Assembly: GCA_903931835.1 (NCBI GenBank)
Contig: CAIZEE010000514.1
Span: forward strand, 1 to 36,302
Reading direction: 5' to 3'
Source: an uncultured Elstera sp.
Lineage (GTDB): Bacteria > Pseudomonadota > Alphaproteobacteria > Elsterales > Elsteraceae
Length of the DNA: 36,302 nucleotides
Shown here one piece after another: positions 5,840 to 9,604 of the stretch. A model generated the notes under the pieces. The model was given only the letters and a program-made list of their open reading frames with translations, did no database searches and was not told the origin of the DNA. Numbering within the stretch: position 1 is the stretch's first letter; each line of letters starts with the position of its first letter. Made by a program: the position numbers and the translations under genes.

Positions 5840-5980
5840 ATGGCTAAGATGTTCAAGTCCCTTGTCCACAGCCCGTTGGCGCTGATGATCGCTCTTGGGC
5901 TGGTTTGCGGATCGCTCAGCGGCTGCGTCATCGAACCCGCCCACCCGCATTACTATCATTACGGCTATTGGTATCGCTAA
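5840..5980 (+). CDS. very small putative lipoprotein with His/Tyr-rich tail (46 aa)
   Basis: Not in ORF track. ATG at 5840 with GGAGG RBS (gaatGGAGGccaccATG). Translation MAKMFKSLVHSPLALMIALGLVCGSLSGCVIEPAHPHYYHYGYWYR*. Hydrophobic signal plus lipobox-like LSGC. Confidence 0.65.
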   Translation: MAKMFKSLVHSPLALMIALGLVCGSLSGCVIEPAHPHYYHYGYWYR

Positions 5981-5999
5981 GCCGTAGATTTGAGACCCG

Positions 6000-6021
6000 C
6001 CAGGCGGGTTCGCCCGCCTGG
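6000..6021. terminator. perfect GC-rich hairpin (9-bp stem, TTCG loop), candidate transcription terminator/attenuator
   Basis: CCAGGCGGG (6000-6008) TTCG CCCGCCTGG (6013-6021), immediately downstream of the small lipoprotein stop; no obvious T-tract follows. Confidence 0.5.
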
Positions 6022-6095
6022 GAGCGCCATTGAGCCCGCTCCAACCGGCAATTTTCATTGTCATTCGGCCTGCAATCGCGGACTCTTCCGTCATT

Positions 6096-6521
6096 ATGGT
6101 TCGATTGATCTTCCTGTTTGCACTACTGGCGCTCACTTGTGCGGGTGAGCCGAGCTTCGCCGCCGATACGAAACTGTTCGATACGTTTGGCGGTGAGGCC
6201 GGCGTTACCAGCCTCGCCAACGATCTGATCGACCGCGCCCTCGTCGATCCCCGCATCCAGCACAGTTTTGACGACAGCAATATCAAGCGCGTCAAGCGGG
6301 AGCTTGCATCGCAGTTTTGCGAGTTGCTGGGGGGACCGTGCGTCTATAAAGGCCGCGACATGAAGGAAGCGCATCAAAAGCTCATGATCACCGATGCCCA
6401 ATTCAACGCCCTGGTCGAAGACCTGCAGGATGCGATGGAACAGCTCGACATCCCGTTCGGCGCGCAGAATCAGTTGCTGGCGAAACTGGCGCCGATGCAT
6501 GCGACGATCGTTACAAAATAG
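6096..6521 (+). CDS. group 1 truncated haemoglobin with N-terminal signal sequence
   Basis: MVRLIFLFALLALTCAGEPSFAADTKLFDTFGGEAGVTSLANDLIDRALVDPRIQHSFDD..SQFCELLGGPCVYKGRDMKEAHQKLMITDAQFNALVEDL matches the truncated globin pattern with proximal His (AHQKL). Start set at ATG 6096. Confidence 0.85.
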   Translation: MVRLIFLFALLALTCAGEPSFAADTKLFDTFGGEAGVTSLANDLIDRALVDPRIQHSFDDSNIKRVKRELASQFCELLGGPCVYKGRDMKEAHQKLMITDAQFNALVEDLQDAMEQLDIPFGAQNQLLAKLAPMHATIVTK

Positions 6522-6524
6522 CCG

Positions 6525-8291
6525 ATGACGGCTGCGGCATCGCGTAGCAAGCCCGCCACAGCCAAGCCCGCGGTCGAGCGGCGTGCTCCGGCACCGCCAC
6601 GCGGCGACGAAACCAAGGAGGCGCCGAGTAATCTCGCCGGTTGGCTTCGACGCTATCGACTGGCGACCGGGCTGACGATGTTCAGCTTTGTTTTCCTGCA
6701 TCTGACCAACCACAGTTTCGGGCTGATCGGCATCTCCTTCATGGAGGCGGCGCAGCCCTATATGGTTGGGCTGTTCCGCCTCGGCTGGCTGAGCCTTGTC
6801 TTCGCCACCGCCGCGTCATCGCATTTGGCGCTCGGCTTCTGGTCGCTGTATTTGCGCCGGAACCTGCGCATGCCGTTATGGGAGGCGATGCAGCTTTCGC
6901 TCGGCCTGCTGATACCGGTGTTCCTCACTCATCATCTGGTCGAAGTCCGCATTTCGATGCTGCTATACGGTACCGAGCTCAATTATTCCTATGTCGTCTG
7001 GCAGTTCCTCGACCATCCGTTCCAGATCCTGCGCCAGATCAGCCTGCTGATCATCGCGTGGTCGCATGGCTGTATCGGCATCCATTTCTGGCTGCGTTTC
7101 CGCCCCTGGTATCCGCGCGGACGGATCGTGCTGTTCGCGGGCGCGCTACTGATGCCGGTTCTGGCTCTGACGGGATTTCTGGCTGCCAGCCGCGAAGTCG
7201 CGGCCCTCAATGTGCAACCACGCGAACACCGCGCCTTCGTCGCCAATGCCAATATTCCGGGGCCGGAAGGCGAGGAACTTTTGCGCGAATTGGAGCACGC
7301 CCTCTATTACGCGCTGGCCGGCACGCTGGCGCTGACCTTGATCGCGCGCTACATACGCGACCGGCCAGGCAAAACCCTCGGCCAGATCAGCGTCACCTAT
7401 AATGACGGCCGGGTGGTGATGACGCCGCCGGGGCCAACCGTGCTGGAAATCAGCCGGTCAGCTGATATTCCCCATGCCAGCGTGTGTGGCGGACGCAGCC
7501 GTTGCAGCACCTGCCGCGTGCGCGTCGGTGGCAATGCCCGCCTGCCGCCACCGACCGCCGACGAGGCGCGTATCCTGGAGCGGTTTGGCGCCGCAAGTGA
7601 TGTGCGTCTTGCCTGCCAGATCCGGCCGACCACCGATATTTCCGTCTTTCCGCTGTTTCAATTCCCCGCCGATAACGAGCATCAGCGTCGCTTCGACACC
7701 GGCAAAGCGCCACGCGAAAAGGATATCGTCGTGCTGTTCGCTGATTTGCGCGATTTCACGCGGATATCGGAATCCAAACTGCCCTATGACACGGTGTTTT
7801 TGCTCAACCGCTATTTCGCCGGCATGGGACGGGCGGTTGAGCAAAGCGGCGGCTATCTCGATAAATTCGTCGGCGATGGCGTCATGGCTCTGTTCGGGCT
7901 GAATAAACCGCTCAGCGAGGCGGGCCGCGACGCGCTTCGGGCTGCCAAGGCGATGTCCTACCAGCTCGCCGAGATTAATCGGGAATTCTCCGATTTCGGC
8001 GAGACCTTGCGCATCGGCATCGGGCTTCATGCCGGTCCCGTGATCACGGGCGATATGGGCTGGGGCACCGCCTTGTCGCTGACCGCAATCGGCGACACGG
8101 TGAATACCGCAAGCCGCGTTGAAGAATTGACCAAGCGCTTCAAGGTGGAGCTGGTGATCGCCGATTCGCTGGCAACCTTATGCGGCATTCCGCTGGACGA
8201 GTTTGAACCACACACCGTTGCTGTCCGCGGCCGCACCAGCGAACTGACCGTCCGGACCGTAGAGAACGCGCAGACTCTGCCGGACTTCTAG
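6525..8291 (+). CDS. class III adenylate/guanylate cyclase with N-terminal 6TM SDH-like (putative dihaem cytochrome b) anchor and [2Fe-2S] ferredoxin domain
   Basis: Six hydrophobic helices with conserved His (HLTNH, SSHLALG, THHLVE, SHGCIGIHFWL). Ferredoxin motif CGGRSRCSTC...LACQ (CX5CX2C...C). Cyclase motifs VVLFADLRDFT, DKFVGDGVMALFG, AIGDTVNTASRVEEL. Confidence 0.88.
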   Translation: MTAAASRSKPATAKPAVERRAPAPPRGDETKEAPSNLAGWLRRYRLATGLTMFSFVFLHLTNHSFGLIGISFMEAAQPYMVGLFRLGWLSLVFATAASSHLALGFWSLYLRRNLRMPLWEAMQLSLGLLIPVFLTHHLVEVRISMLLYGTELNYSYVVWQFLDHPFQILRQISLLIIAWSHGCIGIHFWLRFRPWYPRGRIVLFAGALLMPVLALTGFLAASREVAALNVQPREHRAFVANANIPGPEGEELLRELEHALYYALAGTLALTLIARYIRDRPGKTLGQISVTYNDGRVVMTPPGPTVLEISRSADIPHASVCGGRSRCSTCRVRVGGNARLPPPTADEARILERFGAASDVRLACQIRPTTDISVFPLFQFPADNEHQRRFDTGKAPREKDIVVLFADLRDFTRISESKLPYDTVFLLNRYFAGMGRAVEQSGGYLDKFVGDGVMALFGLNKPLSEAGRDALRAAKAMSYQLAEINREFSDFGETLRIGIGLHAGPVITGDMGWGTALSLTAIGDTVNTASRVEELTKRFKVELVIADSLATLCGIPLDEFEPHTVAVRGRTSELTVRTVENAQTLPDF

Positions 8292-8293
8292 TC

Positions 8294-8629
8294 CTACTTC
8301 ACCGTGATCATCAGATGCATCTTGGTGTGGATGTCGCAGCCGACCATCACCACGCCCGGGTGATCGAAAGTGATTTCCTTGATCTCGCCCGGCTTCTGCA
8401 ATTGCAGATCGAATTCGAACCCAGGCGTTTCGGACAGCATGTTATGCGCGAAGCTGTCCTCGTTCAGGAAGCGGACCGTATCACCGACATGGATCGTCAC
8501 CTCGGCCGGGCTGAAGGCGCGATCCCGCTGGACGATTTCGACGATTTCCCCGCCGCGAGCCGGCATTGCCAGCAATGTCAGGACGGCTAGGCACGATATC
8601 AGACGGAAGAGTGTCACATCGCTATCCAA
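8294..8629 (-). CDS. cupredoxin / plastocyanin-like type 1 copper protein
   Basis: Signal peptide; RAFSPAEVTIHVGDTVRFLNEDSFAHNMLSE...GVVMVGCDIHTKMHLMITVK has the His...Cys-His-Met type 1 copper ligand pattern. Confidence 0.85.
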   Translation of the reverse strand: MDSDVTLFRLISCLAVLTLLAMPARGGEIVEIVQRDRAFSPAEVTIHVGDTVRFLNEDSFAHNMLSETPGFEFDLQLQKPGEIKEITFDHPGVVMVGCDIHTKMHLMITVK

Positions 8630-8704
8630 TTATAAGGATCGGTTTGATGATACGCCGCAGCCACCCAGCATCGCCAGATTATCTGCAACTTTATCAAAGG
8701 ACCG

Positions 8705-9604
8705 CTAAAACCCCGTCTGCAAGGACAGATAGAAACCGTGCTGGTCCTCGACCGTGGCAATAGTGCCGGCATCGACATAGGCCAAGGTCAGCGACGCGTT
8801 CTTGGTCAGGAAATACGCGATAAAGGCATCCTTCCACGCATTTTGTTCCGAGAATGACAGGTTGGATGGCATGGTCCGATATTCGGCGCCAATCGCCAGA
8901 TGGCGGGTGACCAGATAGGCGGCCGATGCGGCCACCTCCGTACTGTAGGCATCACCCTTATTGCCGCCGAATCCCAGGATGCCGAGCTGATTTTCCCTGG
9001 TCTCCATCAGGGTGACATCGACCAGCAGGCTTTCGCTCAGAAACAGCTTGGTAGCAGCGGCGTAGAAATCGACGCCGTGATCGTTCCGGGCGCCGATGGC
9101 AGTCAGGATATTGCCCTGGTCGGTCTGCTTGTACTCAAGTCCAAGGGCCAATTGCGGCAGCCAGTCGTCCTGCTCATAGACCGCATCGCCGATCACCCGG
9201 ACCTTGGCGCCGAACACATCCTCGTGAAAGGTGAAATCCCGGCCAAGTCCCAATCTGGCGCCAGTATCCCCCGTCTGGAACCACAGCCTGGCATAGGAAA
9301 GCTCGACCCGGTCGAACAGCCCAACGGCGAAGCCGCCGGACTGAACATCGAAATCCGGCAGGCTGACATAGGTATAATGCGCATTAGCGCCTATCGCATC
9401 GCGGGTCTCGTAGCCGGTGATCAAAGCCCAGGGCGTGATACCGCCGCCACCCTCCCCCTCAATCGCCGTCACGCCAGCGGTCGCCAGCAGTTTGCCGCTG
9501 TCAAAAAGATCAGCATCGGCTGCATAAGCTGCCGCCTGCGAAAGAACTACTATGATACCGACGAAAGTCTCAAAAAGACGCAAACAGTGCCGCATTATCC
9601 CCAA
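8705..9604 (-). CDS. DUF3034-like outer-membrane beta-barrel protein
   Basis: Signal peptide; GKLLATAGVTAIEGEGGGGITPWALITGYETRD; alternating amphipathic beta-strands; C-terminal aromatic Phe (LSLQTGF). Confidence 0.75.
   Translation of the reverse strand: MGIMRHCLRLFETFVGIIVVLSQAAAYAADADLFDSGKLLATAGVTAIEGEGGGGITPWALITGYETRDAIGANAHYTYVSLPDFDVQSGGFAVGLFDRVELSYARLWFQTGDTGARLGLGRDFTFHEDVFGAKVRVIGDAVYEQDDWLPQLALGLEYKQTDQGNILTAIGARNDHGVDFYAAATKLFLSESLLVDVTLMETRENQLGILGFGGNKGDAYSTEVAASAAYLVTRHLAIGAEYRTMPSNLSFSEQNAWKDAFIAYFLTKNASLTLAYVDAGTIATVEDQHGFYLSLQTGF

Follow-up and report, generated by a model that had tools for sequence, protein, structure and literature searches.

The closest described relative of the signalling enzyme considered here is the adenylate cyclase CyaC of Sinorhizobium meliloti, which has six helices, two haem b and a [2Fe-2S] cluster, in which the redox state of quinone sets cAMP synthesis, and whose gene is preceded by that of a TetR-type regulator (PMC10463352). 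Among the truncated haemoglobins of group N, Tyr at B10 together with Gln at E11 is used for NO dioxygenation and tight binding of O2, and Leu at positions E7, E11 and G8 has been tied to low O2 affinity (PMC4720485). Proteins of these two kinds are encoded side by side in a stretch of DNA of 36,302 nucleotides from an uncultured Elstera sp. (hereafter the window), together with a small lipoprotein, a cupredoxin and a protein of the DUF3034 family (Table 1). An earlier note on this DNA had claimed five genes at 5840-9604 and had read them as one system; Pfam matches and translations place all five there.

The genes are arranged in two converging units, with the lipoprotein, globin and cyclase genes on the forward strand and the DUF3034 gene followed by the cupredoxin gene on the reverse strand. 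The globin and cyclase genes are separated by a 3-bp gap, and 2 bp lie between the stop codons of the cyclase and cupredoxin genes. The globin open reading frame as listed begins at TTG 6030; the ATG at 6096, which gives a normal Sec-type signal, is judged from the sequence to be the most likely start, and GTG 8617 is the likely start of the cupredoxin. A search at E 0.01 returned no match to the window lipoprotein in ten related loci, and this protein probably lies outside the module discussed below. The proposal that the five genes form one system is retained for the linkage of DUF3034, globin and cupredoxin (the triad) and probably fails for the lipoprotein; the five do not make up a single operon.

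Table 1. Genes of the locus, with positions in the window and the evidence for each assignment.
Gene product	Position	Strand	Evidence
Small lipoprotein, 46 aa	5840..5980	+	LSGC lipobox, from translation
Group 1 truncated haemoglobin, exported	6096..6521	+	PF01152 E=1e-13; C75-x6-C82, proximal His93, Ile B10, Leu E11
CyaC-like adenylate cyclase	6525..8291	+	PF00111 Fer2 E=3.4e-7; PF00211 E=2.6e-18
Type 1 cupredoxin, exported, short form	8294..8629	-	PF00127 E=1.3e-7; C-x2-H-x2-M loop
DUF3034 protein, predicted 12-strand outer-membrane barrel	8705..9604	-	PF11231 E=4.5e-95

Conservation of the triad extends over Alpha-, Beta- and Gammaproteobacteria. Of the genomes sampled, 11 of 289 in the class and 41 of 398 in the phylum Pseudomonadota have DUF3034, and neighbourhoods were counted at 51 loci, namely the window and 50 DUF3034 loci from these two samples. 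A gene for a truncated haemoglobin of this type adjoins DUF3034 at 47 of the 51; 39 have a cupredoxin nearby and 34 a GGDEF-EAL protein. Named genomes, when scanned, contributed 80 loci, or 81 with the window, and here the globin is found in 78/81, the cupredoxin in 58/81 and a GGDEF-EAL match in 44/81, some of the transducer matches being weak. Outside the class, the sampled genomes of the phylum mostly have these genes on one strand and almost without gaps, in the order cupredoxin, GGDEF-EAL, DUF3034 and globin. Two further orders gave 19 loci, and 19/19 have DUF3034, globin, cupredoxin and histidine kinase genes (one with DUF3034 broken by a stop and one with the kinase cut by the contig end; some of the contigs also belong to the named set); the genes follow one another as just listed in 18 of these, the kinase preceding the cupredoxin in the remaining locus. 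The co-occurrence search that the earlier note had asked for bears out a strong and wide linkage of DUF3034, globin and cupredoxin, often beside a membrane signalling protein.

The same gene set is carried by annotated plasmids of Caballeronia and Novosphingobium, where the products are named DUF3034 family protein, group 1 truncated hemoglobin and EAL domain-containing protein, and where the cupredoxin is annotated as a methylamine utilization protein or a carboxypeptidase regulatory-like protein. In the open literature searched, no description of the module was found and no paper contained two of these annotation names; DUF3034 was mentioned there only incidentally. Judged by eye, five loci (L246, L255, L211, L265 and L220) have open reading frames near DUF3034 that look like those of an ECF sigma factor and of an anti-sigma factor.

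An adjacent membrane signal transducer is often present and its output varies by lineage. The partners comprise dCache_3-HAMP-GGDEF-EAL proteins, HAMP-PAS histidine kinases (HisKA), 4HB-HAMP-PAS-GGDEF-EAL proteins, one chemoreceptor (L194) and, in the window, CyaC. At one locus (L018) the kinase runs via another hydrophobic stretch into the cupredoxin, forming a fusion. Among 67 GGDEF-EAL partners, the EAL catalytic residues are kept and the GGDEF motif is often unrecognisable; no Cys or His is conserved in their periplasmic sensor, so that sensing of redox state or gas by these partners would call for a cofactor carried by another protein. No response regulator is conserved beside the module kinases in the loci checked. 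In globin-coupled sensors the globin is fused to a signalling domain; in the window the two are separate genes, and no globin-transducer fusion was found among the open reading frames of 131 loci scanned for module domains. At three loci (L077, L080 and L086) the usual module is immediately preceded by one more GGDEF-EAL gene.

The window cyclase is, by its sequence, of the CyaC kind and resembles the S. meliloti enzyme, and this part of the locus belongs to what is already known. Hydropathy gives six hydrophobic segments that precede or flank the Fer2 and cyclase domains. In an alignment of 62 homologues, conservation is 98-100% for histidines 59, 100, 137 and 181, 100% for the Fer2 cysteines 321, 327, 330 and 364, and 89-97% for the class III catalytic residues D407, D451, K447, D524, N527 and R531. 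The previous description of a haem-b/[2Fe-2S] cyclase is upheld for the six segments, the histidines, the cysteines and the catalytic residues; that the protein binds two haem b is a putative assignment by homology, from histidine conservation only. Counted over the matches listed, about 110 genomes out of 385 in the class have a full-length CyaC homologue.

CyaC lies with genes of the triad in two places, the window and a Rhodospirillaceae contig (L187). On the latter, CyaC, DUF3034 and the globin follow each other in this order on the same strand, with 59 bp between the end of CyaC and DUF3034; the contig breaks off inside the globin gene, and a cupredoxin may lie beyond it. Gene order, strand and flanking genes differ between the window and this contig, and none of the window genes outside the module region has a match on it. 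The two cyclases are sisters in a quick tree (99% SH-aLRT) with 50% identity. We read the linkage as one recruitment that survived rearrangement, or as a transfer of the genes as a unit; it amounts to no more than one or two events, perhaps with a single origin. The two orders with close DUF3034 relatives yielded no further CyaC-linked loci and have the kinase version only. Upstream of the cyclase on the Rhodospirillaceae contig (1192-2548 and 3169-4149), open reading frames were noted by eye that look like the bicarbonate transporter SbtA, accompanied by a small PII-like protein, and like TerC.

None of DUF3034, the module globin and the cupredoxin was found in the 60 other CyaC neighbourhoods of the class (0/60). 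The cyclase, which the earlier note had placed in one system with the other genes, is linked to the triad genes in two loci only, and CyaC as a constant member of the module was rejected. This count also speaks for a neutral neighbour, that is, for a CyaC which alone senses quinone and which came to lie beside the globin through rearrangement, and such an account is helped by the self-contained sensor of CyaC (PMC10463352). It is nevertheless somewhat unlikely, since the Rhodospirillaceae contig keeps CyaC close upstream of DUF3034 and globin despite its different order, strand and flanks, and the window globin and cyclase genes are nearly contiguous.

The globins of the module form a distinct kind. 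A Cys-x6-Cys pair is found in 113 of 124. The other 11 include 8 that have lost both cysteines at once, which fits the disulfide that the pair probably forms. A hydrophobic leader was recognised in 112 of the 113 globins with the pair and a lipobox in 20 of these, by a rule of our own rather than a trained predictor. When the haem pocket is aligned with that of HbN, B10 is apolar in 114/123 and E11 in 123/123 module globins, while 6 of 7 cytosolic control globins have Tyr B10 and Gln E11; the proximal His F8 is kept in 123/123 and Phe CD1 in 122/123. The window globin likewise has neither the Tyr B10 nor the Gln E11 of the NO dioxygenases, and its model (pLDDT 89.5) has the helix order of a truncated globin, with HbN as the best solved matches. 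From an apolar pocket without the usual O2-stabilising residues, weak O2 binding is predicted; a function as NO dioxygenase or O2 store appears unlikely, and a role in sensing NO or redox state may be envisaged.

Truncated haemoglobins that are exported, bear a lipobox and have Cys-x6-Cys and an apolar pocket were also met in a plain globin search (L277, L280 and L282). In six further loci (L273, L275, L278, L287, L288 and L293) group 1 globin matches lie within long open reading frames, several of which have an Hpt-like CheA start, as if the globin domain were inside a chemotaxis kinase.

In the cupredoxin, the copper ligands H62, C98, H101 and M104 are invariant in the alignment and make up a complete type 1 electron-transfer site. 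To our knowledge DUF3034 has no known role. The window protein matches PF11231 over positions 1-255 of 255, and its model (pLDDT 81) has 12 strands; by sequence, solved relatives give weak partial matches only, and by fold the best solved matches, at TM about 0.5, include FapF (TM 0.50), COG4313 channels and OmpG. The model makes DUF3034 a likely channel, and this channel-like predicted fold is the direct support for the candidate roles that the earlier note had given the barrel, as a target or as the way in for the ligand.

We propose, with about an even chance of being right, that this locus is one form of a conserved sensory module of the envelope, with cAMP as output here and c-di-GMP or a phosphorelay elsewhere, in which sensing and contact between the proteins are presumed. 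Together with the copper protein, the globin, which is without the usual O2-stabilising residues and has a probable disulfide, would signal either a ligand, NO being the leading candidate, or the periplasmic redox state. The DUF3034 barrel would pass a solute or the ligand, or would anchor the complex at the outer membrane, and the neighbouring membrane protein would convert this state to an output: turnover of c-di-GMP, signalling by a kinase or, in the window, cAMP. There, the periplasmic input would act jointly with CyaC's own quinone-sensing haems. That the globin or cupredoxin hands ligand or electrons to the cyclase, as the earlier note suggested, is a hypothesis, CyaC being already described with a sensor of its own (PMC10463352). 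Four points are counted against the module reading: part of the named loci have no recognised transducer near the core, the CyaC linkage goes back to one or two events at most, CyaC has a sensor domain of its own and is little exposed to the periplasm, and the triad is divided over two strands in the window.

A different function for the triad would be that of a periplasmic chemistry unit, with the globin and cupredoxin reducing or detoxifying NO, O2 or peroxide, the barrel admitting a small molecule and the signalling neighbours being merely co-regulated. O2 reduction has been proposed for a periplasmic truncated haemoglobin of cable bacteria (PMC12093952), and no transducer was recognised near the core in 23 of 80 named loci (short contigs among them), so that the core may function without one. 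Such a unit is unlikely all the same, as the module globins are without Tyr B10 and Gln E11 (PMC4720485), and at one and the same place partners with several unrelated signalling outputs are met repeatedly, one of them fused to the cupredoxin. Handling of copper or haem, with the barrel importing or exporting a metal or haem compound and the globin and cupredoxin as carriers, would suit the channel-like predicted fold and the company of one haem and one copper protein, but is very improbable given the complete electron-transfer site of the cupredoxin and the loci examined, where no copper pump or haem transporter was recognised as a recurrent partner.

A further step would see in the sensory module an undescribed class of envelope sensor, in which the barrel, an exported globin of low O2 affinity and the cupredoxin are the common input to interchangeable inner-membrane outputs (c-di-GMP, histidine kinase, chemoreceptor and cAMP); this step is tentative, and we hold it to be somewhat less than evenly probable. 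What stands out is the triad with exchangeable outputs, and its link to cAMP in the window is one of its rare forms. Few studies deal with exported globins, and we know of no bacterium in which a free globin senses gas or redox state in the periplasm; a phylum-wide gene set with exchangeable outputs gives a direct way into the function of DUF3034 and of the globin, and possibly a periplasmic input added to the CyaC redox pathway.

Compared with known systems, the window cyclase shares with S. meliloti CyaC the order of six transmembrane segments, [2Fe-2S] domain and class III cyclase domain as well as the four membrane histidines, and differs in being linked to an exported globin, a cupredoxin and DUF3034 instead of a TetR-type regulator gene. 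The module globin has the fold, the proximal His F8 and the Phe CD1 of Mycobacterium tuberculosis HbN; it differs in being exported, with an apolar B10 and E11 and Cys-x6-Cys, where HbN lacks the Cys pair and has Tyr B10 with Gln E11. The outer-membrane channels FapF and COG4313 are the best fold matches of DUF3034, yet with about 8-13% identity. In overall design the module resembles H-NOX and NosP, stand-alone haem proteins that are encoded beside signalling enzymes of varying output, kinases or c-di-GMP enzymes; these haem proteins are cytoplasmic and of other folds, whereas the module consists of an exported truncated haemoglobin, a copper protein and an outer-membrane barrel.
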